This document shows positions 20,834 to 53,734 of a DNA stretch of 64,000 nucleotides, piece by piece (position 1 is the first letter of the stretch; every line of letters begins with the position of its first letter). Location: assembly GCF_016862575.1 (NCBI RefSeq), contig NZ_BONF01000054.1, positions 1-64,000 of the forward strand, read 5' to 3'. Under the pieces are notes generated by a model that had not been told where the DNA came from, did no database searches, and saw only the letters and a program-made list of their open reading frames with translations. A program made the translations under genes and the position numbers. Origin of the DNA: Catellatospora bangladeshensis (GTDB taxonomy: Bacteria; Actinomycetota; Actinomycetes; Mycobacteriales; Micromonosporaceae).

Positions 20834-20883
20834 CGGACAAAGAGATTGCTTGACCCATAGAGCGATCTGGGAGGATGTCACCC

Positions 20884-27775: not shown

Positions 27776-29028
27776 CAACAGACATCGATCGCCTACGCCG
27801 CGTGTTGGACAACGAATCGATCACGTGGGTAATCGACCGCGTGCGCGACCGCATGACCCGCGGCGCGAGTCTCACCGGCCTGGTCCGGCTGGCCGACCCC
27901 ACGCCCGCGCAACGCAGCGCCGTCCAAAAGCTGTTCGGGCGCAAACCCGGTACGGGCGGCGGCCTCACCGTCTCACTCGACGCACTCGACGCATTGCTGC
28001 GCGAGAAGCAGCTCGCCGAGGGCTTGGCCGCGGCAGTAGTGACACTACGTGGCCCGATCACGCCGGCGAAGGTCGCCGCCGCGGCACTCGACGACGCCTG
28101 GCAGCGGGCCATGGCCCCGCTGGTTGAAGCCGTCAGCCGGCGGCCCGAGCTCGAGGACTGGTACAACAGGACGCAGACACGTGCCCTCATCCGCCGGCTG
28201 TTCAATACCCCGGATGCCGCCGAGCCCGAGCTGCGCCAGCTCGCCTCCGTCCTTACCGCGATGCCCGCGTCGGGGGTCTCGCTGACTACGTTCGCGAGCC
28301 GCACCGCAGGCAACGCCCACGCCCTGGACACCGGGAAACCTCTAGCGGCACTCGCCGAGTCAGCGATCCGCACGACATGGCTGGCAGAACCACCGCCCGC
28401 GACCGGGCGAGCGCAGCATCGACGTCTTCTCTGGGAGGCTGTCGGCATCCAACTCGACGAGCTGTCCTCGACCGTTTTAGCACTCAACCTCGCCGCGGCA
28501 CCCGGCAGCTACCTGTACCGCTTCACGCAGCCGGCGCTCGAGTCCGGCGAGCCACTCGTACTCACGCTGCGCCAGCTTGCCAGGCACGAGGCGAAGTACC
28601 AGCCACAAGCCGTGTACGTGTGCGAGAACCCAACCATTGTGGCGGCGGCAGCAGATGAGCTCGGTCCAGCGTCGCCAACCGTGGTCTGCGTCAGCGGTCA
28701 GCCCTCGAGCGCAGCGATCCGCCTGTTGACGGGGCTTAACGACTCCGCTGCGACGTTCCACTACCACGGCGACTTCGACTGGGGCGGCCTGCGCATCGCC
28801 AACCTCCTACTCGCGAGGGTGCCGTGGACGCCGTGGCGCTTTCAAACAGTCGACTACCTCGCAGCAGTCGGCGACGCAACACGTCGCCTACGGGGTCGGC
28901 CGACAACCGCCACCTGGGACGAACACCTTGCAGAAGCAATCGCGTCCAAGGGCGTATCGGTCGACGAGGAGCTTGTCCTCGAGGACTTGCTTTCGGACCT
29001 TCGGCATGTGCAGTACACAGCGTCGTGA
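27772..29028 (+). CDS. jetD: Wadjet type II JetD nuclease subunit (DUF2399/TIGR02679 family)
   Basis: The 418-residue product has the TIGR02679/DUF2399 layout: an N-terminal helical domain and a C-terminal Toprim-like domain with YHGDFDWGGLRIANLLL, where the acidic residues bind metal, preceded by VYVCENPTIVAAAADEL (the first Toprim Glu). JetD makes the double-strand cut once the complex has extruded a small circle. ATGA overlap with jetC. The operon is complete and intact. Confidence 0.92.
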   Translation: MTTDIDRLRRVLDNESITWVIDRVRDRMTRGASLTGLVRLADPTPAQRSAVQKLFGRKPGTGGGLTVSLDALDALLREKQLAEGLAAAVVTLRGPITPAKVAAAALDDAWQRAMAPLVEAVSRRPELEDWYNRTQTRALIRRLFNTPDAAEPELRQLASVLTAMPASGVSLTTFASRTAGNAHALDTGKPLAALAESAIRTTWLAEPPPATGRAQHRRLLWEAVGIQLDELSSTVLALNLAAAPGSYLYRFTQPALESGEPLVLTLRQLARHEAKYQPQAVYVCENPTIVAAAADELGPASPTVVCVSGQPSSAAIRLLTGLNDSAATFHYHGDFDWGGLRIANLLLARVPWTPWRFQTVDYLAAVGDATRRLRGRPTTATWDEHLAEAIASKGVSVDEELVLEDLLSDLRHVQYTAS

Positions 29029-29906: not shown

Positions 29907-29973
29907 GCGTGCACCTTAAGCCCTCCGTCGGACACTTCCAGTGACGTTAATATGCGCTGCCAAGGGAGAGCGG

Positions 29974-31815
29974 ATGCCAGGTCATCTGGGCCGCTCGTTT
30001 CGCGATTTCGGATTCGTCGGGGCTATGACGGACGATGTGCGGATGGCTCATGACCTGTCCCGTATCGACCCGCACCGCTTCGAGCAGATGGTGCTGGCGC
30101 TCGGCGTACGTGTGCTCGGCTACGGCCTTCGATCTTTCGGCGCGGGTGCCGATGGCGGGCGTGAAGCCACGTTCGACGGGCCGGTTCCTTATCCGGCGCC
30201 GGGGCCAGGTTCCTGGAACGGCTACATCGTGGTCCAGGCGAAGTGCCGCCGGACCAAGATCGGTGTCAAGGACGCCGAATGGCTGATCGGACAAATCAAG
30301 AGCGAGCTGCGGGCGTGGCTGAATCCTGCCAGCAGTCGCGCACGGACGCGCCGCCCCCAGTATCTAATTATCGCCACGAATGTTCAGTTGAGCAGTACCG
30401 CCTCCAGCGGCGGCATCGACAGGGTTGAGGCCGCCATGAAGGAGCAGGCTGCCGAACTCGGTCTGCTGGACTGGGCCGTGTGGGACGGCAACCAGCTGTC
30501 GACGTTCCTGGACGCCCATCCTGAGGTGGCCAGGACCTACGCCGACGTCATATCGTCGGGCGACGTCCTGACCAAGGCCCTTGAGACCATCGACGCACTG
30601 GGCCGGTCGGTGTCACCGACCCCGATCCGGTTGGGCCAGGGCCAGCCCGGCGCCGAGCGAAAGTTCCAGGCTGCGTACGACAAGGCCGGAGGCGCGGCTG
30701 TGCTAGGTATGCCGACAACCGAGGCTTATGAGGAGGGGCCGGGCTGGGTGCAGGAGTTTCCCCACGCGGTCATCTGCGCTGCGGCGGAAGGCCCGGCCGT
30801 AGCGGTGGACCTGCCGGTCTGGGAAGCGCTCCTGGATGCTGGCGCGGGACACGGTCGCCTGGCGGCGGTCGGCTACCCCATCGTGGACGCCCACACCCCC
30901 GCCTTCATCGACGACAGGGCACAGCCGGTCCGGCTGCACGGTGGCACCTGGAACGACGGGCACCTTCTGCAGAAGATGGGAGGCTGGCGGTGGGAACCGA
31001 AGATCACCTTCAGTTTCAACATCCGCGACCACGATCGATGGCGCCATGTGGAACCGCTGATGGACCTCAGGCTGCGATGCGCGTTACGGGTGAACTGGCA
31101 GGCCAGCCACGAGCTCACGATCGACGCCCAAGGTCGCAGGAACATGAAGTCATTTGTCGCTGGCAGTTGGCTTTCCGGATTCATCGTCCGCCAGGCTAAC
31201 CGCTGGGGCCTCGACGGCAGCTCGCTGAAGTGGCAGCTTACGCCCGACGACGAGGGCTACAACGACAGCCGTTTCGCGTGCTACCGGGTGATGCTGGGCA
31301 GCCCCCCAGGCCCGGCCATCGGGGCGTGGCTACGGCTGAGCCTGCCCGACAGCCTGCGCGGTGAGGTCAGCTGCATCATCGACCTCCGCGTCAACTTTCC
31401 CCACCTTCAGCCACCGGACAGCCTCGCGGATGGACTCGCACTTGCTGCGGCGTCGCGGCCGCTCGATGTACAAGACCTCGTCGAATTCTTTGCTGGGGCC
31501 TGGGAGGCCAACGCCTGGTTCCTCCCGCGAGCTGCGAGCCCTAACCTGCTCTTCTGCAAGACCGTAGGCGCGCCTGTCATCGAATGCCACATAGTCGCCG
31601 AACGCTCGCCAGGACGCGGCCTGCCTTACACGGTCGACCTGCTGCAAGTCGTTGATCTGTCCATGTACGGCGAGGCGCCTGCCAACCCTCGGCCCATGAT
31701 GGGCGCATCTGTGTCGGCGCCGACGTCGCTCGAGCTTCCCCAGATCACCACCACCGTCATCCAACTCCTGGCTCACATGGCATCCGGGTTTGGGTTCCTC
31801 GAGTCCGAGGATTAG
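29974..31815 (+). CDS. PD-(D/E)XK nuclease fused to LGFP-like repeats and an unknown C-terminal domain
   Basis: The ATG at 29974 is chosen because AAGGGAG lies five to six bases upstream; the product is 613 residues. Residues ~30-200 form a restriction-endonuclease fold: Glu37 in RFEQMV, Asp60 in GADGGRE, and Gln88/Lys90 in VVQAKCRR. Residues ~229-320 look like LGFP repeats (AGGAAVLGMPTTEAYEEGPG, then WVQEFPHAVI and GHGRLAAVGYPI), a fold usually found in cell-wall proteins. The last ~300 residues are beta-rich and unrecognised (KITFSFNIRDHDRW). The N-terminal part resembles nucleases of defence fusions in which the C-terminal module senses infection. No partner gene is adjacent in the same direction. 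Confidence 0.72.
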   Translation: MPGHLGRSFRDFGFVGAMTDDVRMAHDLSRIDPHRFEQMVLALGVRVLGYGLRSFGAGADGGREATFDGPVPYPAPGPGSWNGYIVVQAKCRRTKIGVKDAEWLIGQIKSELRAWLNPASSRARTRRPQYLIIATNVQLSSTASSGGIDRVEAAMKEQAAELGLLDWAVWDGNQLSTFLDAHPEVARTYADVISSGDVLTKALETIDALGRSVSPTPIRLGQGQPGAERKFQAAYDKAGGAAVLGMPTTEAYEEGPGWVQEFPHAVICAAAEGPAVAVDLPVWEALLDAGAGHGRLAAVGYPIVDAHTPAFIDDRAQPVRLHGGTWNDGHLLQKMGGWRWEPKITFSFNIRDHDRWRHVEPLMDLRLRCALRVNWQASHELTIDAQGRRNMKSFVAGSWLSGFIVRQANRWGLDGSSLKWQLTPDDEGYNDSRFACYRVMLGSPPGPAIGAWLRLSLPDSLRGEVSCIIDLRVNFPHLQPPDSLADGLALAAASRPLDVQDLVEFFAGAWEANAWFLPRAASPNLLFCKTVGAPVIECHIVAERSPGRGLPYTVDLLQVVDLSMYGEAPANPRPMMGASVSAPTSLELPQITTTVIQLLAHMASGFGFLESED

Positions 31816-32343: not shown

Positions 32344-33234
32344 CTAGGTCGTGTATCGAAGTGCGTGTAGCCATTCGTTGATCGCGGTGATGTGGATCGT
32401 CGCCAGGTTACGGACGGCGAGCTTGTCGTACCGGGTGGCCATCGCACGATGGCGTTTGAGCCGGTTGATGCCGCACTCGACGGCGTGGCGCTGCCGGTAT
32501 ATGACCGGGTCGAACATCGGTGGTCGGCCACCGGCCTGGCCGCGTCGACGGCGGTGCCCAGCCTCATCGGCCGGGATCGGGATGGTGGCCTTGATCTTGC
32601 GTCGGCGCAGCAGGTCACGGTTGGCGCGGCTGCTGTAGGCCTTGTCGGCCAGGACCCGGTCCGGTCTCGTACGGGGCCGGCCGGGCCCTGGCCGCGGGAC
32701 ACGGATAGCGCCAAGCACGGCCGCAAACTGGGGACTGTCACCGGCCTGTCCGGCGGTGACCAGCATCGACAACGGCTTCTGTGCCTGTTCGCAGGCCAGA
32801 TGCAGCTTGGTGGAGTAGCCGCCACGGGAGCGGCCCAACGCGTGATCGGCTGGTTCGCCGACGGGCGGCTCGAGCTGCGCATCGCCGTCACGTCGGGCAC
32901 CGGCGGCGTGCTGATGAGCGCGCGCGGTCGTGGAATCGACGCTGACATCCCAGCCGATCAACCCGGCCGCGTCAGCCGTGGCCTGCAGCGCGGTCACGAT
33001 CCCGAGCCAGACTCCGGCCCGCTGCCACCGCCGGAACAGCCCGTACACCGCCGACCAGGATCCATAGCAGTCTGGCACGTCCCGCCACGGCGCACCTACC
33101 CGCACCCGCCAACGGATACCGTCGATGAGCTGCCGTTTCGTCCACGCCGACGGCCGACCCGCCCCCACGCTGATCGGTAGCAACGGCTCCAGGACCGCCC
33201 ACTGCGCGTCGGTGAGATCGTGCCGCCTCGTCAC
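32344..33234 (-). CDS. IS5-family transposase
   Basis: The 296-residue product has the N-terminal [15 protein letters not shown] domain and a DDE core: Asp in [15 protein letters not shown], Asp in [13 protein letters not shown] and Glu in [14 protein letters not shown]. It is full-length with no frameshift, so it is probably active. The stop codon TAG is not inside the element: it comes from the CTAG target sequence at 32344-32347, with the last codon ACC also using one base of that target. Confidence 0.93.
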
Positions 33235-33348
33235 CGCTAAGGTGGCCGCGAGATCTCCGATATTGCAGGTTCTGCTTGGTCGCTGAACCCTTTACCGGAG
33301 ACCTCGCTCCATATCGATCATCGACACCTAACGACTTCGACACACGCT
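32348..33348 (-). mobile_element. IS5-family insertion sequence, about 1.0 kb, intact
   Basis: Terminal inverted repeats lie at 32348-32362 (GTCGTGTATCGAAGT-like) and 33334-33348, matching at 12 of 15 positions. CTAG flanks both ends (32344-32347 and 33349-33352), consistent with a 4-bp CTAG target duplication. It carries one transposase gene reading leftward. The leader between the gene and the right end contains imperfect palindrome arms GCGAGATCTCCG (33248-33259) and CGGAGACCTCGC (33296-33307), related to the relic at 1187-1290. Confidence 0.82.
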
Positions 33349-33352
33349 CTAG

Positions 33353-34072
<720 letters not shown>

Positions 34073-35116
34073 GTGCCGTCTGACAAGCTCGCCCTCGGTG
34101 CGGCGGCGGTGTTTATGGCGCTATGCTTGGCCACCTTCCTGTGGGCAACGCGGCCCTCGGCGGCCGGGCGACGCCAGGCCATCCTTGTCTTCACCTGGCT
34201 GTGCGCCGCGCTCGCGGCGACCCTCGTCATCTTCTCGCTGTTCCCCAACTCGCATGCCTACGGCGACCTGATGGGCGTCACCCTCGGCGGAGCCGGCGCG
34301 TTCGTCGTACTGGTGTGGACGGCGGCGCTGCGTGCGAGTCGCCGCAGTGAGCAGATCGACCTGTTGCAGGGGCAGCTTCGTGAACGCGACGACGAGATCG
34401 CGCGGCTTACGGAGGAGATCCGCGACCTGAATACTGCCGACCACCCGCGCCGTTTGGACTCTACCCAGCTCCTGCTCTACCGCGTGGTGGGCGCGCCGGG
34501 CCGCCGATGCGTCGGCATCGTGACCGGCGACATCCGCCGGGCCCGTTGCGCCGAGGTGTGGGTCAACTCCGAGAACACCGACATGCAGATGGCGAGGGCC
34601 AGCGACCACTCGATCTCGGGCCTGATCCGTTACGAGGGCGCGGTGCGTGACGAGACGGGCCGGATCGTCGACGACGTTATCTCGGACGAGCTCGACCGGC
34701 GTATCGGCGCGCGTCGGCCCGTGCCTGCCGGTACCGTCGTCGTTACCGGCTCGGGCGCGCTCGCGTCCGTGGGCGTGAACTGGATCGCCCACGTGGCCAC
34801 GGTCCACGGCGAGCCGGGCGCCGGGTTCCGTCAGGTGCAGGAGCTCGGCCGCTGCGTCACCAACGTGCTGACCGCTGTCGGCTCGCCGCAGCACGACTAC
34901 GCCGCGCGCAGCGTGCTGTTCCCGCTGCTCGGCGTTGGCCACGGCAGTGGCGACCTGCTGCGCACCGTGACCACGATGGCGACGGTGATCGCCGGTCAGC
35001 TGGCGACCGACCGCGACAGCAGCGTCGAGACGGTTTACCTGCTCGCGTACACCGACGCGGAGCTGCTGATCTGCTCGCAGGTGCTCGGCTCGATGACGGA
35101 ACTGAAGGCCGAGTGA
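34073..35116 (+). CDS. Membrane-anchored macro-domain protein
   Basis: The 347-residue product starts at GTG with GGGAAGGA upstream. Three hydrophobic segments fall in residues ~5-105 (AAAVFMALCLATFLWA; FTWLCAALAATLVIFSLF; LGGAGAFVVLVWTAAL). A coiled coil follows (IDLLQGQLRERDDEIARLTE), then a macro domain from ~residue 130: GIVTGDIRRA, AEVWVNSENTDMQMAR, GTVVVTGSGAL, and SVLFPLLGVGHGSGD. Macro domains bind or hydrolyse ADP-ribose and its derivatives. The gene is convergent with, and only 15 bases from, the nucleosidase-like gene, suggesting a functional unit. Whether it senses a nucleotide signal or removes ADP-ribose is not shown. Confidence 0.82.
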   Translation: MPSDKLALGAAAVFMALCLATFLWATRPSAAGRRQAILVFTWLCAALAATLVIFSLFPNSHAYGDLMGVTLGGAGAFVVLVWTAALRASRRSEQIDLLQGQLRERDDEIARLTEEIRDLNTADHPRRLDSTQLLLYRVVGAPGRRCVGIVTGDIRRARCAEVWVNSENTDMQMARASDHSISGLIRYEGAVRDETGRIVDDVISDELDRRIGARRPVPAGTVVVTGSGALASVGVNWIAHVATVHGEPGAGFRQVQELGRCVTNVLTAVGSPQHDYAARSVLFPLLGVGHGSGDLLRTVTTMATVIAGQLATDRDSSVETVYLLAYTDAELLICSQVLGSMTELKAE

Positions 35117-35131
35117 TTCGTGCGCGACGGA

Positions 35132-36181
35132 CTAGCGGTCGCTCGTGAGCGGATCGCACTCGGCCAGCAGGGCTCGCACGTACGCCGCAGCAACAAAGGA
35201 TGCGTAAGGCCGCCAGGTCCCGTCTGTGCGGCTGTCGCCGTAGTCGCTGACGCCGCGCACTACGAACCATTCCAGGCCGTTGAGGAAGCCCGCCTTGCCG
35301 ATCCCCCGACCCTCCATCTCGAAGGCGAGCAGGTTGTGCTTCTCCGCCAGGTCGTCTCGTACCGCGGCGTCGCGCAGGGACCGGTCGGCGCTGCCGATGA
35401 GGCCGTAATGCACCTTCGGAAACCCGGGCCGGTGCCCTGTGGCCACGGGGTCCGGATGGATCAGTGTTCTCCCCGACTCGTCGGTTGCGCGCAGCACATC
35501 CGTGGCTTCGGCGGGCCTTCCGAAGTCGGTGAGATCAGGTCGTGCGGTCAAGGCGAGCAGGTCCTCCCACGGCCGATGTCCGCGCATCGACCTGGCTCTC
35601 AGCCGCCGCGATGCGCCAGCTAGCGCCGGAGACGGCTGGGGGAAACCGCCGCGCAGCCGCACCCCGTCCGGCCGCACATCGACGTGGTCGTAGTCGACCA
35701 CGCCCCACTCCGCCACGACGATGTCGCCCAGCCGGACGTGATGCGACGGTCTTGCCGGAGCCGGAACTCCGGCGGCGATCCCTACCATGACGACGTGGCG
35801 TACCTCTGGAAAGCTGCGCCGCAGGTTGGTGCAGGCCGTTGCGGCCGCGTCGTTACCCGCCTGCGGAAGCATCGTGAGAACCACGACGTGCGGCTGCCCG
35901 GGTAGGCGGCTGGGCATGGATCCGCGCTCGTAGGCGGCGTTGTCGCCAGCGACGCCTGGTAGCGGTGTGATGTCCTCGATGAGTGCCTGCACCGCCGACA
36001 ACTCCTCCGGCAGTGCCGTGATAAGGCCGACCGTGGGGCCTATCGAGCTCTGCCCAGTCCGCGGGCCGGTGGTCCGCCCTTCGGCCCCGGGCTGGACACC
36101 ATGGTAGATGTTGCCCGTCCCGAGATGCGATCCCCGGAGATCGTTGGGGCCGTGGAAGACGTTGGACGGCCGGTCGGTCAC
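35132..36181 (-). CDS. Nucleoside phosphorylase/MTAN-fold effector with N-terminal amyloid-like motif
   Basis: The 349-residue product starts at GTG with GGGAG six bases upstream; the GTGA overlaps the stop of the membrane-protein gene. Residues 7-30 form a Gly/His/Asn-rich motif (core GSHLGTGNIYHG). From about residue 50 comes a PNP/UDP-phosphorylase fold: VGLITALPEELSAV, VVMVGIAAGVP, LGDIVVAEWGVVDYD, LLAFEMEGRGIGKAG and VVRGVSDYGDS, where the last Asp is the usual catalytic acid. Such domains serve as nucleosidase effectors in bacterial NLR-linked and other abortive defence systems. The adjacent upstream gene encodes a protein ending in a matching motif. Confidence 0.82.
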   Translation of the reverse strand: MTDRPSNVFHGPNDLRGSHLGTGNIYHGVQPGAEGRTTGPRTGQSSIGPTVGLITALPEELSAVQALIEDITPLPGVAGDNAAYERGSMPSRLPGQPHVVVLTMLPQAGNDAAATACTNLRRSFPEVRHVVMVGIAAGVPAPARPSHHVRLGDIVVAEWGVVDYDHVDVRPDGVRLRGGFPQPSPALAGASRRLRARSMRGHRPWEDLLALTARPDLTDFGRPAEATDVLRATDESGRTLIHPDPVATGHRPGFPKVHYGLIGSADRSLRDAAVRDDLAEKHNLLAFEMEGRGIGKAGFLNGLEWFVVRGVSDYGDSRTDGTWRPYASFVAAAYVRALLAECDPLTSDR

Positions 36182-37983
36182 TGCTGGCTCCCGCCTGTCG
36201 GCGCCTGCTGGGAATAGTGGACGTCGCCGCTACCGAAGTGTGCGCCCTGCGCGTTGGTCGGCCCGACGAACAGGTTGCCGGTGTGGTTGAGGACCGTCGT
36301 CGCCCGATTGACGTACTCGTCGGTATCGAAGCCCATGTCATCGAGGAAGTCGAGTACCGCCGCGAGCAGACGGCGTTCGAGGACCTTCCAGTGACGCTTC
36401 ACATCGTGCATCTGGAAGTAGTTGACCGCCCGTGCCGCCTGGCGGTTGAGTCGGTCGGCCTCGCGCACGGCCCGGAGTGCCGCCCGCTCGGTTGCCGCGT
36501 CGGCCTCCACGATCAGGAGCACGTCCCGCTGGTGGTGGCTTACCATGTCCTTTGGCTGCCGCGCCGCGATCGCGGCCACGTACCGGGAAATGGCGCCGTC
36601 CTCACGGACACTGAACCGGGTGCCGCTGCGCCGGCTGTCGTCACGCGGTCCGGTCCTGCCCAGGCTCACCAAAGTCCGGAATGCGTAGGGCACGGCGGAC
36701 CACAGGTCGCCCGGGACGCGCTGAATCTCGTCAGGCAGGTTGCCGAGTCGCCGCAGCGCCAGGCGCGTGTGCGACCAGACCGCGCGCCAACCGTGGCCCA
36801 CGCTCAGGTGGAAGTCCGGGCGGGTCGGCAGCAGCGCCCAGACCGAGAATTCCAGGTATAGCGTCCGGCCCTGCAGCGAGGCGGTGACGAAGACCGAGGT
36901 CACCGTCTCGCCGCCCCACCCTTCGACGACGCAGGCGAGGTAGTGGCGTGCTGGGCCGGTGGGGTCGGCGCGGGCTGCAGCGATGGCGTCATCGACGATC
37001 GGCGAGATCCCGTCCGCTGCGGACTCGACCACGTATAACCGGTCGTTGACGACGAGGCCGGGCAGCTTCGTCTCGTCCACCGGCCAGTAGTCTGGGATCA
37101 GGATCTCATCGACCTCGGCGCGCAGGCCCTCCAGTTCGGCACGGATCCGCCGCATCAGCTCCTCGCTACCGAACGGCAGGAACTCCTCCTCGCGCTCGGC
37201 TTCTGAAAGGCGCTGCGTAGTACCGGAAAGGTCATCCTGGCGCTTGATCAGTCGCAGTGGGAACGCCCACGTTGCGATCTCCTCGCCGCTGCCAACGAAC
37301 GGCCGATACCCGGAGTAGAACGTGATCCGGCTACGCTGCGCCTCCTGCAGGTACGTCATGCGCCGGTTGAGGCGGCGTGCCGGAGCCGCGTCCTCCTCCA
37401 TGAGCATATGCAGGGCGGCCTGCCGCATCGCGGCGCCGATCAGGACGGCGATAGTGGCTGCCACGATGACCAGGACGGCCGATGACGCCACATCGACCAG
37501 AGCGGTCGCTTCCTTCCCGGGCTGCCAGACCGCTGCCACCGCGCTCCCGCCAAGCGCGACAAACAGCGCCAGAAGGACCACCGCTGTGGTCACGAGTGAC
37601 TTCATCGCGACGACTGACAGCCGTACCCGGAATCCAACGAGATCGCCCCAGCCCGGTCGGTCCCGCAGGTAGCGGCCAAAGTCCACGGCGATGAGGCGTA
37701 GCTGGTGCAGGATGTGCCAAATCATGATCATTCCACCGGCCAGCACTACCACCACTGGCGCGGCCCCTATGAGCAGGATCGCGCCTACCAGTACCACGTG
37801 CTGGGCTGAGTCGATCAGCCAGGCGCGACGCGCGTGCAGGGCTACCTGTGCGACGTCGAAGCCAAAGGAGGGGGCGACGTGGCGGGAGCGGTCCGCGTAC
37901 GCGTCCAGCAGCACCCGCTGCGCGAACCTGCTGTCAAGGTAGACACCGGCACACAGGTTCCTGGTGCTCGCGCTGAGCTTCAC
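36178..37983 (-). CDS. Multi-pass membrane protein with C-terminal amyloid-like motif; partner of the nucleosidase
   Basis: The 601-residue product starts at GTG with GGAGG five bases upstream. Hydrophobic segments cluster in residues ~55-210 (VVLVGAILLIGAAPVVVVLA; SLVTTAVVLLALFVALGGSA; SSAVLVIVAATIAVLIGAA). A large cytosolic part follows with no recognised family (SGYRPFVGSGEEIATWAFPL; YLACVVEGWGGETVTSVFVT; NYFQMHDVKRHWKVLERRLL). Residues 570-593 (core GAHFGSGDVHYS) match the N-terminal motif of the nucleosidase gene, which it overlaps by four bases. I infer a membrane sensor that recruits or nucleates the nucleosidase. Confidence 0.7.
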   Translation of the reverse strand: MKLSASTRNLCAGVYLDSRFAQRVLLDAYADRSRHVAPSFGFDVAQVALHARRAWLIDSAQHVVLVGAILLIGAAPVVVVLAGGMIMIWHILHQLRLIAVDFGRYLRDRPGWGDLVGFRVRLSVVAMKSLVTTAVVLLALFVALGGSAVAAVWQPGKEATALVDVASSAVLVIVAATIAVLIGAAMRQAALHMLMEEDAAPARRLNRRMTYLQEAQRSRITFYSGYRPFVGSGEEIATWAFPLRLIKRQDDLSGTTQRLSEAEREEEFLPFGSEELMRRIRAELEGLRAEVDEILIPDYWPVDETKLPGLVVNDRLYVVESAADGISPIVDDAIAAARADPTGPARHYLACVVEGWGGETVTSVFVTASLQGRTLYLEFSVWALLPTRPDFHLSVGHGWRAVWSHTRLALRRLGNLPDEIQRVPGDLWSAVPYAFRTLVSLGRTGPRDDSRRSGTRFSVREDGAISRYVAAIAARQPKDMVSHHQRDVLLIVEADAATERAALRAVREADRLNRQAARAVNYFQMHDVKRHWKVLERRLLAAVLDFLDDMGFDTDEYVNRATTVLNHTGNLFVGPTNAQGAHFGSGDVHYSQQAPTGGSQQ

Positions 37984-38263
37984 CGTGCCTCCGGACCTCG
38001 GATGACACCCCGAACGTGAGGGATAGGTGTCCGACGGTAGCCGAAGAGCGGAGAGCTGTCAGTCCTCACCGCACGAACCCGACCGATCGTCCGAACTCGA
38101 TTCGCTCATTCGCTCGTTCGCTCAGGCGGCCAGGATCCGTTGGGCGGCAACGACATGGACGTTCCCGCGAAATGCCGCCAGGCGCTGCAAGGGCGTCGGC
38201 GCGCCTACTCGTCGGCGTCAGGACCGCAGCGGTACGGCGAAGCTGCCTCTGTGATGGCTCGTG
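37984..38263. other. Divergent spacer, no gene seen
   Basis: This is the promoter side of the membrane-protein gene. It contains short repeats of the type TTCGCTCATTCGCTCGTTCG around 38100-38123. No reading frame with family-like sequence is present. Confidence 0.3.
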
Positions 38264-38485
38264 TGGAGTGCCCGATGCGGGGGCTACGTGGGCATCCAGG
38301 GCAAGCCGCGCAAGCTCGGGCACCGCGTCAGCGGCACTATGATCCAATGGCTGCTGCGGATCCGGCGTCTTCCGCCTGCGCCGCAGCGGTTACAGGTTAC
38401 GTGCCGGGACTTCCTGCGGACCCAGGCGGGCACCATCTTGACCTGCGACCTCTTGCAGCGGCAGTCGTACACCTCGGCAACCTGA
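38264..38485 (+). pseudogene. Fragment of an IS3-like/integrase-core transposase
   Basis: About 70 residues read as an rve-type transposase piece: GGYVGIQGKPRKLGHRVSG, then RRLPPAPQRLQVTCRDFLRT and QAGTILTCDLL, which parallels the usual GYRRIQGELRKLGHRVS / PPAPQR / WRQFLRTQA / ILACDFF. The second part of the catalytic domain is absent and a stop follows, so it is a relic just upstream of the Qat operon. Confidence 0.65.
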
Positions 38486-38621
38486 CCGCACTGCCCGAAC
38501 GCCGCGATGCTCGATATCGGCCAGCCATGTGGCTGTGGAGGACGGCCGGTGGCGACAAGGACCTCGTCCACTACAATACCGTGTCCTCGTCGGTGCGTTG
38601 AGTGATCATGTTGGAGTGCGG

Positions 38622-40400
38622 GTGACCAATCCTGGGCCTCAGGCCAGCTTCGCCGCGCCCCTGTTCGACGACAACCCGGCCATCCTCGACCTGCTCGGGT
38701 TCGACGCGGTGGCCGAGGTAGTGGCCAGAGTCGTCACTGCAGGTGGTCTGGACCCGGTAACGGTGGGCATCCACAGCGCCTGGGGTGGAGGGAAGTCCAC
38801 CGCGCTGAATCTCATTGCCGGTCGCCTCGGCCGCGAGGGCCACGTGGTCGTGGTCCGGATCGACCCGTGGGAGTTCGAGAACGCCGAGGACCTGCGCGGT
38901 ACTTTGATCACCCAGGTCCTAGACGAGTTGCAGAGCCGCGTCGAGTCCACTACAACGGAGCCGTCGAAGCGGGAACGGCTGGTGGCCCGTCTCGGTGATC
39001 TGCGGCGGCGCATCGCCTGGGGGCGCGTGGCCCAGGTGCTGGTGTCGAGTGCGGTGACCCTTTCGCCCAACTTCGATGGGCTGATTGAAGCGCTGACGCC
39101 CAAGCCGAAACAGGTGGAGTCCGAAGCGGGCACGGCTGGCGCTCAAGGTATGGCGGGCTTCCGGGAGGCTTTTGAGGCGCTGATGGGCGAAGTTGACGGC
39201 ATCCAGAAAGTGGTCGTGCTCGTCGACGATCTTGATCGCTGTCTGCCACCGACGATCATGGCGACTCTTGAAGCGATCAAGCTGTTCTTGTCGGTGCGGC
39301 GGATGGCGTTCGTGCTGGCCGCCGATGAGGACCTGATCCGTGAGGCGATCGGCGTCCACCTGGAGGGCGCGGCCAAGGGCGGGTTCGCCAAGCTGTACAC
39401 CGAGAAAATCATCCAGCTTCCGATCTCTCTGCCGGTGTTGTCGGTCGAGCAGGCGGAGGCCTACGTCGCGTTGCTGCTGTGCAAGAACGCTGGGCAGCTC
39501 ACCACGCAGGCGTTCCAGGACGTCATCGACGCAGCGCGCCAGCGCCGGCTGGAGGGCAGAGCGCCGTACGTCGTCGCTGGCGAGAACGGATCCGACGGGC
39601 CGTCGGGCGAACACCTTGTGCTGGCGGCACGTATCGCTGAAGGACTCGGCGCTGACGTGTGGCGTAGCCCTCGGGCGATCAAGCGGTTCCTCAACGCGTT
39701 CGCCGTCCGCGAGCACCTCGCTCGTGCCGGCGGCGCAGAGCTGGAGCTTGAGGTCCTGCTCAAGTTGTACCTGCTGGAGATCAGACACCTGGAGGAATTC
39801 CGCCTGCTGAGCCAGAAGCCGTCCGCAGAACGCAACACGCTGATCGCTGACTGGGAGCGCTGGGCCGACGGCGACGGCGATCGACCGCAGGGTGTGCGCG
39901 AGGAGACAAAAGCGTGGGCACGCAGCAAGCCGTCACTCACGGGACTCGAGGCGCAGGTCGAGCGGTACCTAAGCGTCGCGGCGACGCTGCTGAGTGATGT
40001 CCGCTTCGGCGGCGCGGTCACCGGAGCGCTCATACGGATCATCGAGGCTCTGGCCGACGCCTCCGAGGCGACGCGTGGTGCGGCAGTACAGGAGCTGAAA
40101 GAGTTGGAGCTGGCCGACCGGCAGATCGTGGTCCAAGGCCTGGGCGACCAGCTGACCCGACTGGCGGATCCCGAGCCGGTGATCGCGTCGCTCGCCACGG
40201 TCAGCCAGGCTGACCCCGATTTGGCCGACATGGCGAGCCGGGCACTGAGCCAGCCGGCGGTGGTCGGGCGGCTGGAGCCCCACCACGTCGTGTACCTCGC
40301 TGGGTTCGAGCAGGTGCTACGGGTGATCGTCGCCACCAAGGGGCTGGATGCCGACGTCGTGGAAGCGGCGCGTGCTGAGCTCGCCGAGCCGCTGCGGTAA
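38622..40400 (+). CDS. qatA: QatA, KAP-family P-loop ATPase
   Basis: I start at GTG 38622 (MTNPGPQASFAAP) because TTGGAG lies six bases upstream; the open frame extends further back without a site. The 592-residue product is a KAP NTPase: Walker A HSAWGGGKST at residues 51-60, the DPWEFEN motif typical of KAP proteins, and Walker B KVVVLVDDLDRC followed by MATLEAIKLFLSV. A hydrophobic stretch near residue 135-145 may be the inserted membrane segment of this family. It heads a four-gene operon matching QatABCD, an antiphage system of known effect but unclear mechanism. Its stop overlaps the qatB start (TAATG). Confidence 0.92.
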   Translation: MTNPGPQASFAAPLFDDNPAILDLLGFDAVAEVVARVVTAGGLDPVTVGIHSAWGGGKSTALNLIAGRLGREGHVVVVRIDPWEFENAEDLRGTLITQVLDELQSRVESTTTEPSKRERLVARLGDLRRRIAWGRVAQVLVSSAVTLSPNFDGLIEALTPKPKQVESEAGTAGAQGMAGFREAFEALMGEVDGIQKVVVLVDDLDRCLPPTIMATLEAIKLFLSVRRMAFVLAADEDLIREAIGVHLEGAAKGGFAKLYTEKIIQLPISLPVLSVEQAEAYVALLLCKNAGQLTTQAFQDVIDAARQRRLEGRAPYVVAGENGSDGPSGEHLVLAARIAEGLGADVWRSPRAIKRFLNAFAVREHLARAGGAELELEVLLKLYLLEIRHLEEFRLLSQKPSAERNTLIADWERWADGDGDRPQGVREETKAWARSKPSLTGLEAQVERYLSVAATLLSDVRFGGAVTGALIRIIEALADASEATRGAAVQELKELELADRQIVVQGLGDQLTRLADPEPVIASLATVSQADPDLADMASRALSQPAVVGRLEPHHVVYLAGFEQVLRVIVATKGLDADVVEAARAELAEPLR

Positions 40401-41182
40401 TGGGCACCTCCGGCGCGTATGGCGGCAGCGGCTCCCAAACCTGGGACGCAGCCCATGAAGCGTACGGGGACGCCGCCGCAGCGGACGGGACGGGCCCGTC
40501 GGATGCGCAGGTTCAGGCGTTTGTCAATGCGTTCATGCAGGCCCTGGCGAAGAACTCCGGACCGGTGCCAGGACCGTCGTCGTACCCGCTCGCCTCGCTG
40601 CGCCCCCAGCGGGCCGGCGGCGGCGGGGGATCGAGCAGTTCGGCTGGCGGAGGAGGCGAACGCAACCTCGGCCGGCAGACCGCCCGTGGAGCCGCCGCGG
40701 TCGCCGGAGCTTCCGCACTGCGCACCGGCGACCGGGCGACACTCGCTGAACTCGGTCTCGACCTGAACCATCTCGACAGCCTGCCCTCGCCCCGGGCCAA
40801 ATGCGCATACATCGTCGACACCCTGCTCGGGGCCCCAAGCCACCCCGACGAGGTGGCGCTGCGTGCCGCGACGTTGCGCACCATGGTGGAGATCCAGAAG
40901 GCTAAGGAGGCGCTAACCGCCGCTCAGCAGCTGGAGCTGTTCCTCCAGCACCTAGCCTACGAGCAGGTGCTCGTCGAACTGACATCGCAGCGGCGCACCG
41001 ACCACATCACGCCACAGCGCGCGAAGGAGATCGAGGACAAGGCCAAGAAATACCTACGCGCGAGCGTGTCGGCGATGCGGCTACCGAAGATTGCGAAGCT
41101 GGCCGCACAAACCTTCGTCGCGTCCGCTACAACGCTCGCACACAAGGTGTTTACGGTCTTCCGGATCCGAGACGAGCGATGA
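40400..41182 (+). CDS. qatB: QatB
   Basis: The 260-residue product starts MGTSGAYGGSGSQTWDAAHE, the usual opening of QatB proteins. A low-complexity Gly/Ser stretch (AGGGGGSSSSAGGGGERN) precedes a helical domain (RTMVEIQKAKEALTAAQQLE, and PQRAKEIEDKAKKYLRASVS). Its biochemical role is unknown. It is coupled by a one-base overlap to qatA and by ATGA to qatC. Confidence 0.88.
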   Translation: MGTSGAYGGSGSQTWDAAHEAYGDAAAADGTGPSDAQVQAFVNAFMQALAKNSGPVPGPSSYPLASLRPQRAGGGGGSSSSAGGGGERNLGRQTARGAAAVAGASALRTGDRATLAELGLDLNHLDSLPSPRAKCAYIVDTLLGAPSHPDEVALRAATLRTMVEIQKAKEALTAAQQLELFLQHLAYEQVLVELTSQRRTDHITPQRAKEIEDKAKKYLRASVSAMRLPKIAKLAAQTFVASATTLAHKVFTVFRIRDER

Positions 41183-42450
41183 ACATTCTCGAACTGCTGC
41201 CAGACGGCTCACCGGCCACCCAACCCGACGCGGTCATCTACCCATGGCCCGCCACGCCCGGCCGCTCGGCCGCAGTGCACACAGAAATCGGCTGGTCGAT
41301 GACAGAACTCGGACCGGCCGCGCCAGCAGCCAAAGACCTGTTGCGCATCGTTGCCGCCGCCTACCTGGCCGACCGGACCGTCTCGCGTCCACAGCTGGCC
41401 ATGCACCGCGACATGCACATCATCGTCCACCTCGAGCAGCCGGAGACCTGGACGCAAGAATCCCTGGACCGGATAGCGGACCTGCTGCACTGGCTGTCCG
41501 GCGACACCTGGCGCATTGACATCGTTCCTGCGCAACCGGCGACCGCGCACACCCGGCCCGACGCCCTCCCTGCACCAGTCGAAACCGTCAGCCTGCTCTC
41601 CGGCGGCCTCGACTCGTTGTGCGGTGCCCTGCTGCACCTTGACGACGCTGCCACAACCGTCTTCCTCGGTCACCGCGACAGCTCCACCGCCGTGCGCCGA
41701 GCGCAGGACACGATCAAGGTTGCACTGCGCCAGCGCCAATCGGACAGCACCTACCTCCGATTCGCATTCAGGCCGATCACCACACGGCGCGAGTCGACAC
41801 CCCGCACCCGCTCCCTGCTGTTCATGGCCATGGCCGCCGCGGTCGCATCCGGCCACGACGCCACTCGCATTCTTGTACCGGAGAACGGATTCACGAGCAT
41901 TAACCCGCCTCTGGAACCGTCACGCGGCGGTCCGCTGACCACCAGGTCGACCCATCCGTGGACCTTCTACACCCTGCAGCAGCTGCTCGACTCGCTACCG
42001 CTGAATGGCATAACCATCACCAACCCTTACGCCACGATGACCAAAGGTGAGCTTGTCGCCGAAGCGCTGCGCCCCGACTCCGCCGACGACTTGCGCTTGG
42101 CCGCAGCCACACTGTCCTGTGCTAAGCCCAACGCCGGACGCCTGCCCGGAGGCAACCCCAACCTCAACTGCGGCCTTTGCATAGCGTGCCTCGTCCGCCG
42201 CAGCTCCTTCATCGCCGCGCAGCTGCCCGACGAGACAGAATACCTGGTCGACGTGCTCACCGAACCGACACGCGAACGGCTGATGCATCTACGGCGCCAC
42301 GACATCGCTGCCTGGTCTTACGCTACCAGCGCCGGCTTCGATGAGTACCGCGTCATCGCCTCCGGACTGTGGCCCCCGCAGACCGATTTCGACGCAGTAC
42401 TCGCGCTCTGCGACCGAGGGCTGGAGGAACTTGCCCGTGTCACTATCTGA
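41179..42450 (+). CDS. qatC: QatC, QueC-like PP-loop protein
   Basis: The 423-residue product has the PP-loop SGGLDS in TVSLLSGGLDSLCGALLHLD and a C-terminal zinc-type cluster (LSCAKPN, then NLNCGLCIACLVRRSSF). This is the 7-cyano-7-deazaguanine synthase (QueC) fold, extended at the N-terminus by ~130 residues as in Qat systems. It probably adenylates a substrate, perhaps modifying a protein or nucleobase. No other queuosine genes are nearby, which fits a defence rather than tRNA-modification role. It overlaps qatD by 14 bases. Confidence 0.92.
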   Translation: MNILELLPDGSPATQPDAVIYPWPATPGRSAAVHTEIGWSMTELGPAAPAAKDLLRIVAAAYLADRTVSRPQLAMHRDMHIIVHLEQPETWTQESLDRIADLLHWLSGDTWRIDIVPAQPATAHTRPDALPAPVETVSLLSGGLDSLCGALLHLDDAATTVFLGHRDSSTAVRRAQDTIKVALRQRQSDSTYLRFAFRPITTRRESTPRTRSLLFMAMAAAVASGHDATRILVPENGFTSINPPLEPSRGGPLTTRSTHPWTFYTLQQLLDSLPLNGITITNPYATMTKGELVAEALRPDSADDLRLAAATLSCAKPNAGRLPGGNPNLNCGLCIACLVRRSSFIAAQLPDETEYLVDVLTEPTRERLMHLRRHDIAAWSYATSAGFDEYRVIASGLWPPQTDFDAVLALCDRGLEELARVTI

Positions 42451-43195
42451 CCTTCCGGCGCTGGACTGCCACGCCCACATCGCACCCGATGTAACCGCTG
42501 CTCAGGTCAGAGCACTCAACGGCGGCATCATCTTCGCGATGACCCGCAGCCCAGCGGAAGCCGCCGCAGCCGCACGTCGAAACGACGCCACGATTCTCTG
42601 GGGCTACGGCGCCCATCCGGGCGTCGCAGCGGCAGTCGCCGCCGTCACCGAAGACAGCGTCAGACGAGGCGTTGAACAGCACACCATCGTCGGCGAAATC
42701 GGCCTCGACCGAAAGACCGCATTAGCGCCACAGCTAGCTGCGCTTGACATGATCCTCAAAGTCTGCGCCGACCAGCCACGCTTGCTGTCTTTACACAGCA
42801 CCGGACGTACCAGCGAGTTGCTCGACGCGCTCACCCGCCGCCCACAGACCGGCGCGATCCTGCACTGGTTCAACGGCACCCGCGACGAAATCGAACGTGC
42901 CGCCGCTCTGGGCTGCTACTTCTCCGTCAACGCAGCCATGTCCGACGAACGACTCGCATGGATCCCTTGTGACCGTCTGCTGCCCGAGACCGACTTTCCG
43001 AGCAGCCGACGCACCACACGCGCTGGCATGCCAGGCGACATCGCTGCCCTCGAGCAGCGTATGTCCGCACTGCTGAACCAACCGGCACCTACCATCCGCG
43101 AACTGTGGTATCGCAACCTCGCCACGCTGGCGAAGCGAACCGGTGTCATCTCTCAGGTGCCGCCTACGCTCCGCGAACTTCTTGAGGGCGTCTGA
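42437..43195 (+). CDS. qatD: QatD, TatD-like metal-dependent DNase
   Basis: I start at GTG 42437 with GGAGG at 42423-42427; the frame upstream lies inside qatC and is not coding. The 252-residue product has TatD metal ligands: LDCHAHIAPD, VGEIGLDRK, LLSLHSTGRTSE, ILHWFNG and LLPETDFPSS. TatD proteins are metal-dependent DNases and here provide the nuclease arm of the Qat system. It is the last gene of the operon. The following 258 bases show nothing I can name. Confidence 0.9.
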   Translation: MSLSDLPALDCHAHIAPDVTAAQVRALNGGIIFAMTRSPAEAAAAARRNDATILWGYGAHPGVAAAVAAVTEDSVRRGVEQHTIVGEIGLDRKTALAPQLAALDMILKVCADQPRLLSLHSTGRTSELLDALTRRPQTGAILHWFNGTRDEIERAAALGCYFSVNAAMSDERLAWIPCDRLLPETDFPSSRRTTRAGMPGDIAALEQRMSALLNQPAPTIRELWYRNLATLAKRTGVISQVPPTLRELLEGV

Positions 43196-44437: not shown

Positions 44438-44608
44438 CAGGTGACAATAACGCTGTTGTTGATCATCATTTATCCGCCAGTCGGTCGGAAGGATCGGGCG
44501 TAACGGCGGCGGTGTGCTTCCAGGCGTCGCGTAAGTCTGGCCCACCGTGAGCCGATGCGCAGGTAAGCAGCGCACACAGTGTCCGGCCCGGCGTCTAGGA
44601 TGCCTCCC

Positions 44609-47600
44609 ATGCAGGAGGGCCGGTGGACCACGATCACGCCGTCGCAGTTCGCGCACGAGCGCGAGGCGCTGGCACAGGTACAGGCACTGCTGCCTGACAC
44701 CGAACCTTACCGTGCGTGGTCGAACTTCACGTTTACCGCGCAATCCGGGCATCCGCACGAGGTGGATCTGCTGGTCGTCGGGCCTGGCGGGCTCTACCTG
44801 ATTGAGATCAAGAGTTTGACGGGTCGCCTTGTGTCGAGCGGCTCGAATTGGATGCTCACCGGCCCCAGCGCTACTCGAACTTTCGACAACCCGCTGCACC
44901 TGGCCGATGCAAAGGCCAAGCGACTGCGGTCGCTTCTAGAAGCAGCCAACCAGCGCAGCAAGACCAAGGTTCGGATCCCGTTCGTGCAGGCTGCGGTGTT
45001 CCTGTCAAAGCCGGGGCTGCAGATCGGCCTGTCCGACTATCACATGCACGGCCTGTATGGTCCGGAGCCCGCCACGGGCGCGCAGCCCGGCCCGCTGCCG
45101 CCTATCTGGTCGGCGCTGCTGCAGCGTCCGCCGCAGGACGAACGGCACCGGGTCACGCCGCAGGTGTCTCGCGCGCTGCCGGATTTGCTCGCGGCGGTGG
45201 GAATCGCCCGCAGCCGTCGCCACTACCAGATCGGTTCCTGGGAGCTCGCCTCGCGCCCGTTCGACGTGGGCCCCACGTGGCAGGACCACGAGGCCAAGCA
45301 TCGCGAGCTGGAACGAGAGCGTCGCCGGGTGCGGATCTACCTGGTTGAGCGCAATGCGGTGCAGGCTGAGCGTGCCAGCATCGAGCGTGCGGCCAAGCGG
45401 GAGATGCTGGCGCTGCACGGCATCAACCATCCCGGCATCGTGCAGGTCGACGCGATGGAGTCGCACGAGGCCGGGCCTGCGCTGATCTTCCGGCACGACC
45501 CGCGGTCGATGCGGCTCGACCACTACATGGCGCAGTACGGCGAACGCCTAGACGCGCCGGCGCGGCTCACGATGATCCGCCAGCTCGCCGAGACGGTGGC
45601 GTACGCGCACCGGCGGCACCTGCACCACCGGGCGTTGTCGGCGCGCAGCGTCCTGGTCACCCCAGGCCGCAAGCGCCGCGGCGGCGGTGACGACGAAGCG
45701 TGGCTCTCGCCGCAATTGCAGCTCAGCGACTGGCAGGTGGCGACCCGCGGCACAGACTCGGGCAGCAGCGCCACAAGCGGCGGCGAGCTCGTGGCGATGT
45801 CCTCCCACGCGGCAGCACATCTGGAGCGGTCCGCCGAGGCGTATCTAGCCCCGGAGCTGACCACTCCCCGCCCGGACGCAGTCGCGATGGACGTCTTCGG
45901 TCTGGGCGCGCTTGCCTACCTAATCCTGACCGGGCAACCACCGGCGGCAAAGCGTGCCGAGCTGCTCGCCCGACTTGCCCAGGAGAACGGGCTGCGGCCG
46001 TCGTCGGTGGCCGACTCGGTGTCGGAGTTCGCCGACGAGCTGGTCCAGGCAGCCACCGCGCCGCTGCCGACTCAGCGCCTCACGACTGTCGCGGACTTCA
46101 TCGAGATGCTGGAGGTCATCGAGGACGAGCTGACGGCGCCGCCGCCGGCCTCGGTGCACCCGGAGCAGGTGGAGCCCCAGATCGATCCGCTTGAGGCGCG
46201 CCCTGGTGACCGCGTCAATGAGTGGACGATCCGCAAGCGGCTGGGAACCGGCTCCACCTGCCGCGCCTTCCTGGCCTACAACGACCGCACCGGCCGGGAG
46301 GAGGTGCTCAAGGTCGGGCTCTCCGACGAGAAGGGCACCCGCTTGGCGCACGAAGCGCGCGTGCTCGGCCCGCTCACCGACTCGCGAATCATCCGGCTGG
46401 CCAGGCCCGAGCCGCTGCAGATCGCCAACCGCACCGTTGTGGTGCTGGAGCACGCGGGCGACCGGACACTGGCACGTAAGCTGCGTGACGAGGGCCGGCT
46501 GACCGTCGACGAGCTGGAGACGTACAGCGACTACCTGTTCGGCGCGCTGGACTACCTCGAGGGTGAGGGCGTCTACCACCGCGACGTGAAGCCCGACAAC
46601 ATCGCCATCCGGGTGCGCCCCAACCGCACGCGGCAGCTGGTGGTGTTCGACTTCTCCCTCGCCGGGGTCTCCGTCAAGGAGATCACCGCAGGCACTCCGC
46701 GCTACCTCGACCCCTTCCTGGGCAGCGCCACCCGTCAGGTCTACGACCGGCACGCCGAGTGGTACGCGCTGGCCGTCACGCTGCACGAGATGGCCTCCGG
46801 CGAGCTGCCGGTCTGGGGTGACGGCGGCACCGAACCCCAGCTGACCGACGGGCCGCCCGTGCTGGCCGTGGAGGCATTCGACCCGGCCGTCCGGGACGGG
46901 CTGGTCGACTTCTTCGACGTCGCGCTGCATCGTGACGCTCGGGCGCGTCACACGTCGCTCAAGGAGATGCGCGACGCCTGGCAGCAGGTGTTCCGACGCT
47001 CCGACGCGAGCGCTCCGGTGGGCACGGACCACCCCGAACTGACGGACGACGCCGACGTCCAGCAGGCTGAGGCGGCCCGCGACGAGGCCGCAGCGAAGGC
47101 GACCCGCGCAACAGCGCTGGATGCCGCCGGCCTCACGCCACGCGCGGTGTCGGCGGCGCACCGCCTCGAAGCCACTACTGTTGGCGAGCTCCTGGCCGTG
47201 GCGACGAAACTCGCCCACCTGCCCGGGTTGGGCGCCAAGACCCGCCAGGAACTGCAGCGGCGGGTCAAGGACTGGCGCAACCGGCTCGGTGACCGCGAGA
47301 CCATCGCGACGTCGACGGCCGACCGCAAGGCAGCCCAGTCCGAGGTCGAGGACGCGGCCGCCGCAAGCGGCCATGCCGACGCCGAACTCATCCGCATCGG
47401 GCTCGACGCCATCGCGACGCTGCTCGTGCCGGCGAAGACCAGCCGCAACACCAACGAGGCCGAAGCCACCAGGCTGCTGCTCAACCTGCCTGACGAGACC
47501 GGGGCGCTGCCGGACCTGCCGCCGTGGCCGCAGCAGCCCCAGGTGGCCAAGATCCTGGGCGTCACCTCGGGACGTATCGCGCAGATCCTCGGCAGCCAGC

Positions 47601-49012: not shown

Positions 49013-49015
49013 GGC

Positions 49016-50038
49016 TCACCAACCGGGGTATCGGTCCGACCAGTGCGGATCGTCGGCTTCGCCGTACAGGTTTCCTGACGGGTTCTCGGTGATCTGGCGC
49101 ACAAAGTCTTGGGCAAGGGTGTCGGCTGCCCACGCCAGCTCCAGGCGTGACAGCCAGTCGACGGGAAGCGCGTTGGGACCGTGCATCGCGCCGAGGAGGG
49201 TACCCGCGACCGCGGCAGCATGGCCGCCGTCACCGGCCGATGCGGCGAAGAGCAACGCGTCGCGTACGCGTTCAGGCTCGGGGAACGACATTGCGGCATA
49301 GACTCCACCGGCGAGGGCGGACGTGGCCCGTGCATCGGAAGCGAGCTGTGACAGCACCGCAGGCTGGGCGGCGGGAGCCTGGGCCGCAGCGAGAGCAAGG
49401 CTCTTGCCGGCCGCGGCGGGCCACTGGCGCTCGGCCAAGGCAGCGGCGTCCGCAATGCCCCGGCCTCTGCTGACCTGGTGAATCATCATGGTGCCAACGG
49501 CGGCGGCGTCCACAGCCTCACCGCAATGGGTCAGTGCGGCGATCTCGGCGGCCAGCTGACCCGCCCTGTCGACCTCATCGGGCAACAGCGCGGCGGGAAG
49601 GCTCCGAACGACTGCATGAGCGCCGATACTCGAACCCACCGGTTCCTCGATCGTGCCGGACTTCTTGCCCTGCAGCGCCGCCACCGTGGCCGGTGCCGAA
49701 CCGCGCCGCTGGGCCAAGACCGGTACGTGTACCAGCCAGCCATCGGGCCAGTTCTCATCGCTCCATGGCTTGATCCCAGCGATGCGCTGTGCCGTAGCCC
49801 AGCGATGGTATGCGTGCCAGACCACACCAGGGTGGTAACAGATGCCCTTGTGAGACAGGCGGACATCCGCGCGGATCAGGCCATCGACGGTGAAGCAAGC
49901 CAGCTGCCCACCGCTCGTGGCCTGCAACGGCTCATCGTCTGGCACATTGCCGGCCAGCGCACCGACCGAACTGCCCAGCACCAGACCGAGCACCGTACCG
50001 CGGGCAGCATAGATCCGCTGCGAGGTCGACCTATCCAC
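49016..50038 (-). CDS. ADP-ribosylglycohydrolase-fold protein lacking the metal-binding motifs
   Basis: I start at GTG 50038 (VDRSTSQRIYAARGTVLGLV) because the longer start at 50101 would run almost into the pglX ribosome site; neither has a clear site. The 340-residue product follows the DraG/ARH layout: ARGTVLGLVLGSSVGALAG, FTVDGLIRAD, GWLVHVPVLAQRRGSAPATV and GDGGHAAAVAGTLLGAMHG. In active enzymes these regions contain acidic Mg-binding motifs (GD near the start, TDDT before the second, GDxDT in the last); here they read GSS, SGGQ and GDGGH. So it may bind ADP-ribose or a protein without hydrolysis. It lies between pglW and pglX on the opposite strand. Confidence 0.8.
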   Translation of the reverse strand: MDRSTSQRIYAARGTVLGLVLGSSVGALAGNVPDDEPLQATSGGQLACFTVDGLIRADVRLSHKGICYHPGVVWHAYHRWATAQRIAGIKPWSDENWPDGWLVHVPVLAQRRGSAPATVAALQGKKSGTIEEPVGSSIGAHAVVRSLPAALLPDEVDRAGQLAAEIAALTHCGEAVDAAAVGTMMIHQVSRGRGIADAAALAERQWPAAAGKSLALAAAQAPAAQPAVLSQLASDARATSALAGGVYAAMSFPEPERVRDALLFAASAGDGGHAAAVAGTLLGAMHGPNALPVDWLSRLELAWAADTLAQDFVRQITENPSGNLYGEADDPHWSDRYPGW

Positions 50039-50133
50039 CGGCCGATCATAGGGGCGCAGGCACGGCTGAGTGGAGGCCGTGACTGCTCTGGCGGGTGACA
50101 CCGACGTACGGAGGTGACGACTAAGCTCTGCCT

Positions 50134-53688: not shown

Positions 53689-53700
53689 ATCTGTTCCTGA

Positions 53701-53734
53701 ACCCTGAGATGCCTCGGCTGAGGCATCTCAGGGT
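53701..53734. terminator. Bidirectional hairpin terminator after pglX
   Basis: A perfect 15-bp stem (ACCCTGAGATGCCTC at 53701-53715, complement at 53720-53734) with a GGCT loop lies between pglX and the convergent EVE-DUF3883 gene. It implies that pglY must have its own promoter. Confidence 0.85.

Follow-up and report, generated by a model that had tools for sequence, protein, structure and literature searches.

A membrane protein and an overlapping PNP-superfamily protein share a co-varying terminal motif in an actinobacterial defence island

Introduction

Why should a multi-pass membrane protein and a nucleosidase-like protein, encoded by overlapping genes, carry the same short motif at the ends where they face each other? 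The question is raised by the 64,000-nucleotide stretch of DNA analysed here (the window), for which an original prediction had proposed a new two-gene abortive-infection or stress-death system linked by an amyloid-like motif. Dyrka et al. are said to have described bacterial amyloid signalling sequences (BASS) in NLR/Bell two-gene systems in 2020. Here we examine the window pair and its relatives and weigh what could hold the two copies of the motif alike.

Results

The window pair bears one motif at its facing ends

The membrane protein and the overlapping PNP-superfamily protein bear the same short motif at their facing ends, where the C-terminus of the former meets the N-terminus of the latter, as had been proposed (Table 1). 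Residues 570–593 and 7–30 align without gaps and are identical at nine of 24 positions (N, F, G, P, G, H, G, G and Q), which reproduces exactly the residue ranges and identities of the original prediction. The last 46 residues of the membrane protein were searched in six frames from −4000 to +4500 nt around its gene, and the top match was the N-terminus of the PNP protein with a score of 70, compared with 44 for the best of six shuffled window tails in the same search. The highest score of the tail against the downstream stretches of 94 other loci was 43. Among 121 PNP N-termini, comprising that of the window and the 120 homologues listed of 338 found, the true partner ranked second with a score of 64, next to a PNP from a sister system with 65. 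A chance match at the window pair was therefore rejected on the combined grounds of the shuffles, the other loci, the PNP ranking and the re-pairings described below. The two copies use the same codon at four of the nine identical residues, against 4.46 expected from codon usage, and share 55% of their DNA sequence; the window locus thus bears no sign of recent duplication, in agreement with the earlier claim.

Table 1 Features of the window pair and its surroundings.
Feature	Position	Strand	Details
Wadjet II	20875-29028		JetA2-D2; PADLOC
PNP-superfamily (MTA/SAH nucleosidase-like) gene	35132..36181	-	349 aa; candidate effector
PNP catalytic stretch	35243..35320	-	E288, E290, R309, D313; from sequence alignment
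PNP residue E60	36002-36004	-	at least 90% conserved (59 sequences)
Motif, N-terminal copy	36092..36163	-	PNP-protein residues 7-30
Membrane-protein gene	36178..37983	-	601 aa; multi-pass; candidate sensor
4-nt overlap	36178..36181	-	membrane-gene stop / PNP-gene GTG start
Motif, C-terminal copy	36205..36276	-	membrane-protein residues 570-593
Soluble part of membrane protein	36325..37308	-	residues 226-553; weakly START/SRPBCC helix-grip-like
Membrane region of membrane protein	37396..37854	-	residues 44-196; four long helices in model
Qat	38529-43195		QatA, ORF in the place of QatB without PADLOC hit, QatC, QatD; PADLOC
BREX type 2-like	44579-62925		PglW, PglX, BrxC/PglY, PglZ, BrxD; PADLOC

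The pair lies amid defence genes, with Wadjet II, Qat and BREX type 2-like genes assigned by PADLOC on both sides, which bears out the defence setting. The gene convergent with the PNP gene (34073–35116, + strand) encodes a protein that has a macro domain (PF01661, E 8.8e-05) and begins with a hydrophobic stretch, and a 624-aa protein encoded at 29941–31815 (+ strand) shows a weak match to Mrr-type restriction endonucleases (PF04471, E 0.00035). An Rfam scan of positions 33000–39000 returned nothing.

Features of the two proteins

The window membrane protein has no match in Pfam or PADLOC, and a Pfam scan of 24 relatives gave three weak single hits only, with no NTPase among them. Its AlphaFold2 model has a mean pLDDT of 83.2, falling below 50 in residues 572–601. 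The helices of the modelled membrane region, together with hydropathy peaks at residues 56–81, 134–152 and 168–186, lead us to predict three or four membrane passes; with these and no NTPase match, the proposal of a multi-pass partner other than an NLR was upheld. A START-like sensor fold, suggested by the modelled soluble part, is only a lead because the fold comparison is weak, and a search for PDB relatives by sequence profile gave two hits (E 0.045 and 0.28) that we judged to be noise. The homologue search with this protein returned 53 relatives. A match to the membrane family turned up in 69 of 200 genomes sampled from the taxonomic family to which the window belongs.

The overlapping gene encodes a protein that matches PF01048 (E 6e-11) and the PADLOC profile 'PN-superfamily effector' (E 1.2e-16). 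In the monomer model, the first 40 residues, which include the motif, have a block-mean pLDDT of 48–50, so that the motif-bearing ends of both proteins are modelled as disordered. In an alignment with MTAN of V. cholerae, its catalytic stretch falls on the EME and R-ISD stretches, and Glu288, Glu290, Arg309 and Asp313 are invariant across 59 sequences. The pattern RG[IVLM]SD is present in 22 of the 26 PNPs found in pairs (see below) and absent in those of L010, L060, L115 and L131. The window partner keeps the PNP fold and the MTAN-type catalytic residues, and nucleosidase activity is predicted; the assignment of a PNP-type effector to the pair thus stood. PNP immune effectors cleave ATP, according to the portions consulted of two reports (PMC11249213, PMC10952713).

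One further PNP, P0128, has a different motif at its N-terminus, and its gene directly follows that of a distant membrane-family relative (L139:4603-7338; hhalign 99.4%, E 2.5e-21). The C-terminus of this relative, which the first search had missed, resembles the N-terminal motif of P0128 with a score of only 35, and from this locus the paired system may extend beyond what the first membrane-family profile revealed.

Motif copies match within loci and differ between loci

To the window we added 18 membrane-family loci found by a scan of genome contigs and 88 regions that we picked from a match table of the 200 sampled genomes, one per place. An ORF matching the membrane-family profile was present in all 107 stretches, and 95 distinct loci were kept after identical 60-residue tails were discarded; gene calls in these loci were based on ORFs and GC3. 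A strict pair was defined by a best six-frame tail match that scored 45 or more, exceeded the scores of six shuffles and lay on the same strand, in a gene at the stop of the membrane gene. By this definition, the gene beginning at the stop codon of the membrane gene bears a matching motif in 70 of the 95 loci. The 4-nt overlap of the window recurs in 33 of these 70 loci, and the two genes overlap to some extent in 52.

The re-pairing test was run on all 95 loci, or on 60 non-redundant ones, unselected for a match. In the 60 loci, the mean score of a membrane-protein tail with its own partner was 68.8, whereas the highest mean in 10,000 random re-pairings was 37.1, and the true partner ranked first in 36 loci. 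Over all 95 loci the corresponding mean was 67.6, against 35.9 on re-pairing, with 42 true partners in first place. Paired copies therefore co-vary, a check that the original prediction had named, and together with the 70 strict pairs this result supports a receptor/effector-like pair with a shared short motif. Three other membrane/PNP pairs, each probably on one contig, have their own matched versions of the motif, and each of their partners ranks first among the same 121 PNPs (the window protein and the 120 listed of 338). The motifs of the 70 pairs fall into 29 clusters, differing strongly between loci and matching within a locus. After regression on both protein bodies, the similarity of tails still tracked that of the partner N-termini, with a partial r of 0.62 for the 70 pairs and 0.61 for the 26 PNP pairs (none of 2000 permutations was as high in either set); this correlation and the 60% motif identity within pairs are partly circular, because the 70 pairs were selected for matching.

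Composition of the motifs

The motifs contain more N (log2 +2.7), G (+1.3) and Q (+0.9) than the protein bodies do, whereas L (log2 −2.9), R and other charged residues are scarcer in them, with charge at 8.5% versus 21.5% in the bodies. The linkers beside the motifs have a different make-up, rich in R and P. In composition, the motifs resemble known amyloid signalling motifs. None of the 70 tails or 70 N-termini contains the strict pattern FxGxGxQxxGxGxF of the fungal PNP_UDP-associated amyloid signalling motif (PUASM), and none of the 70 pairs contains the RHIM/PP/BASS3 core NxGxQxGxN or [VI]Q[VIL]GxxN, which we take to be the RHIM/PP/BASS3 core pattern as well. By these simple patterns, membership of PUASM or RHIM/PP was rejected. 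The single printed PUASM peptide scored a mean of 21.9 against the present motifs, compared with 18.9 for its shuffles, of which five in 500 were as high. That peptide forms fibres and foci, as stated in the part of the source consulted (PMC9815663).

Partners and gene order vary among loci

Pfam assigned 26 of the 70 partners to PNP, 19 to DUF5955 (E up to 0.01), two to bDLD3 and one to TIR_2. The partner in L010 combines PNP with bDLD3, whereas those in L078 and L002 consist of the motif with bDLD3 and with TIR, respectively. With the 26 PNPs, L002 and L078 set aside, the other 42 partners are small proteins of 97–143 aa. A quick FastTree tree with long branches suggested at least seven changes of partner class.

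The remaining 25 loci were sorted by eye. Six have weaker downstream matches (L122, L123, L125, L126, L129 and L136), and Pfam identified a CHAT-domain partner in L123 and L126. In four loci (L067, L068, L073 and L084) a PNP-like gene lies upstream and carries the motif at its C-terminus; those of L068 and L084 were confirmed by Pfam, that of L073 is cut by the end of the region, and only L068 passes the score threshold. From these upstream PNPs it follows that pairing survives a changed gene order and a changed terminus. The second L073 gene is a tandem copy of the membrane gene. In L096 (above the threshold) and L108 (below it), a cyclase-like gene lies upstream, likewise with a motif at the C-terminus. 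In seven of the 95 loci a motif-like tail has no recognised adjoining partner (L072, L089, L101, L109, L114, L132 and L135). We also looked for relatives that lack the motif and keep the gene pair, the refuting case named beforehand, and found five membrane relatives without the motif (L085, L093, L095, L118 and L119), none of which adjoins a recognised partner. Six tail matches other than the strict pairs exceeded the threshold, namely those of L068, of the two L073 genes (to each other), and of L096, L122 and L129; the L122 match, of low complexity and on the opposite strand, and the L129 match, 1.3 kb away, were taken as noise.

Several of these neighbourhoods have features of their own. 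The upstream genes L096:1656-2399 and L013:5011-5838 seem by eye to encode nucleotide-cyclase-type domains and have no Pfam hit; their products close with a motif similar to the one in the membrane protein that follows, and they are a possible third component. L068:6837-8006, encoded before the membrane gene, unites a PNP, the motif and a weak DUF5955-like part in a single protein. In the related loci L129 and L136, a gene that appears vWA-like by eye (L129:3141-3848 and L136:3151-3858) follows the small motif-bearing partner.

Of the original interpretation, the paired co-varying motif, the PNP effector, the non-NLR membrane partner and the defence setting thus remain, whereas its two-gene scope is too narrow, since effectors, gene order and the motif-bearing terminus all vary.

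Discussion

The reading that we favour, and consider rather probable, is that a membrane sensor uses a homotypic motif, probably of amyloid nature, to recruit effectors that are interchangeable, and that the ensuing clustering would deplete nucleotides and kill the cell. Located at the inner face of the membrane, the sensor would respond to an insult such as a lipid, a small hydrophobic ligand or membrane damage by phage. Its disordered C-terminal motif would then pass into an ordered β stack, which would recruit and template the matching N-terminal motif of the PNP protein; that the two motifs match is observed, and their contact would be homotypic and probably amyloid. Clustering could switch on the PNP active site, so that a base is stripped from a nucleotide, for example ATP or a related metabolite, and growth would halt or the cell would die before phage release, as known PNP effectors suggest. 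The motif would serve as a private address whose copies stay alike within a locus and drift between loci, and such privacy would let paralogous systems share one cell with no need to cross-talk. PNP, TIR, CHAT, bDLD3 and small proteins would be exchangeable as effectors.

We favour amyloid over another kind of tag mainly because each partner is similar to the other and not its complement, and because of the make-up of the motifs. The same matching could be produced by a non-amyloid homotypic docking tag, such as a small β sandwich, hairpin or solenoid, that keeps the PNP protein at the membrane in a defined complex. The data consist of within-pair matching, of which fibres are no part, and one motif copy per protein and the frequent 4-nt overlaps would suit a stoichiometric complex. 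However, in-register stacking accounts directly for partners that are alike and not complementary, the N/G/Q-rich and charge-poor make-up is similar to that of known amyloid signalling motifs, and the layout is shared by the two-gene amyloid systems described in the published sections consulted; we regard such a tag as unlikely. Still less probable, in our judgement, is that the membrane protein is a restrainer that holds the PNP protein inactive until damage or its own loss frees the enzyme, in the manner of a toxin and antitoxin. The tight overlap of the genes, the position of the membrane gene ahead of its partner in most loci and an effector with no membrane signal of its own would fit this arrangement. 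Effectors of the TIR, CHAT and bDLD3 classes are, as a rule, activated by clustering in other systems, which speaks against restraint, and the five motif-less membrane relatives stand alone, unlike what would be expected of an antitoxin.

As a general explanation, it appears very improbable that the match arose by chance or that a low-complexity Gly/Asn stretch was recently duplicated within each locus. Across the 70 pairs, the same codon is used at 606 of 988 identical residues, compared with 517 expected (approximate z of 5.7), and in a few pairs, L069 for example, the two copies hardly differ; some motif copies may therefore stem from local duplication or conversion, and the likeness of the motifs may be maintained in part by copying from one gene to the other now and then. 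Nevertheless, none of the 10,000 re-pairings reached the observed mean, codon sharing in the window is as expected, the median DNA identity of the motifs is 68%, and the linkers beside them differ in make-up.

If sensor recruitment through a homotypic motif is correct, bacterial amyloid-type signalling would not be tied to NLRs and would extend to a membrane family whose partners are of at least five types; this unannotated family and the DUF5955-like small proteins would gain a candidate function, and the fungal PNP/NLR amyloid systems would have a bacterial counterpart. The matched but diverging motif pairs form a natural experiment on the specificity of amyloid templating, which swaps of motifs between loci would make directly testable. 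More tentatively, the loci could represent a large undescribed immune class with one conserved membrane sensor, interchangeable effectors and locus-private, prion-like motifs, in which orthogonal amyloid codes insulate co-resident systems. Such codes are suggested by the breadth of the motif repertoire, and, if real, they would be a naturally evolved insulation of amyloid signalling lines. Searches of the open-licence literature brought up no account of such a membrane receptor family.

Comparison with known systems

The closest parallels are the BASS systems and the fungal PUASM. As in the present pairs, BASS are short G/N/Q-rich motifs at the facing termini of proteins encoded by adjacent or overlapping genes, and they too occur in actinobacteria with CHAT and TIR effectors, so far as the portions consulted describe them. 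According to the same portions, the published two-gene amyloid systems join the N-terminus of an NLR to the C-terminus of an effector (PMC7889193, PMC8086366, PMC12261475, PMC9815663), whereas here the C-terminus of the receptor is matched to the N-terminus of the effector, with the exception of the four loci in which an upstream PNP bears the motif at its C-terminus. The BASS receptor is described there as an NLR/STAND NTPase, in contrast to a multi-pass membrane protein with no recognised NTPase. PUASM, too, is a short motif common to a PNP_UDP effector and the receptor to which it links that effector, but in the excerpts at hand the fungal partner is a NACHT-type NLR and the motif lies at the C-terminus of the effector (PMC9815663).

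Cap17/DtcC (Detocs), CBASS and other PNP ATP nucleosidases share the PNP fold and candidate nucleotide depletion with the window protein. In the available passages on these effectors, they are linked to a SLOG domain, a phosphorelay or a cyclic nucleotide (PMC11249213, PMC10952713), whereas the present PNP would be linked to a peptide motif of a membrane protein. The EAD/bDLD3 coupling systems of Kaur et al. resemble the present pairs in placing copies of an adaptor on receptor and effector and in using PNP, TIR and bDLD3 effectors, and the two-gene EACC1 system in encoding a membrane partner beside a variable protein. In the sections consulted (PMC8195603, PMC7159879), however, the EAD/bDLD3 adaptor is a folded domain, while the present link is a locus-private motif of 20–30 residues; EACC1 spans the membrane with a single helix and its partner is of the caspase type, compared with three or four predicted helices and a PNP in the window, although a CHAT partner does occur in L123 and L126, two of the weaker pairs. 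The receptor, the termini that are joined and the motif pattern of the present pairs thus differ from those of the BASS/NLR and PUASM systems as these are described in the text consulted.
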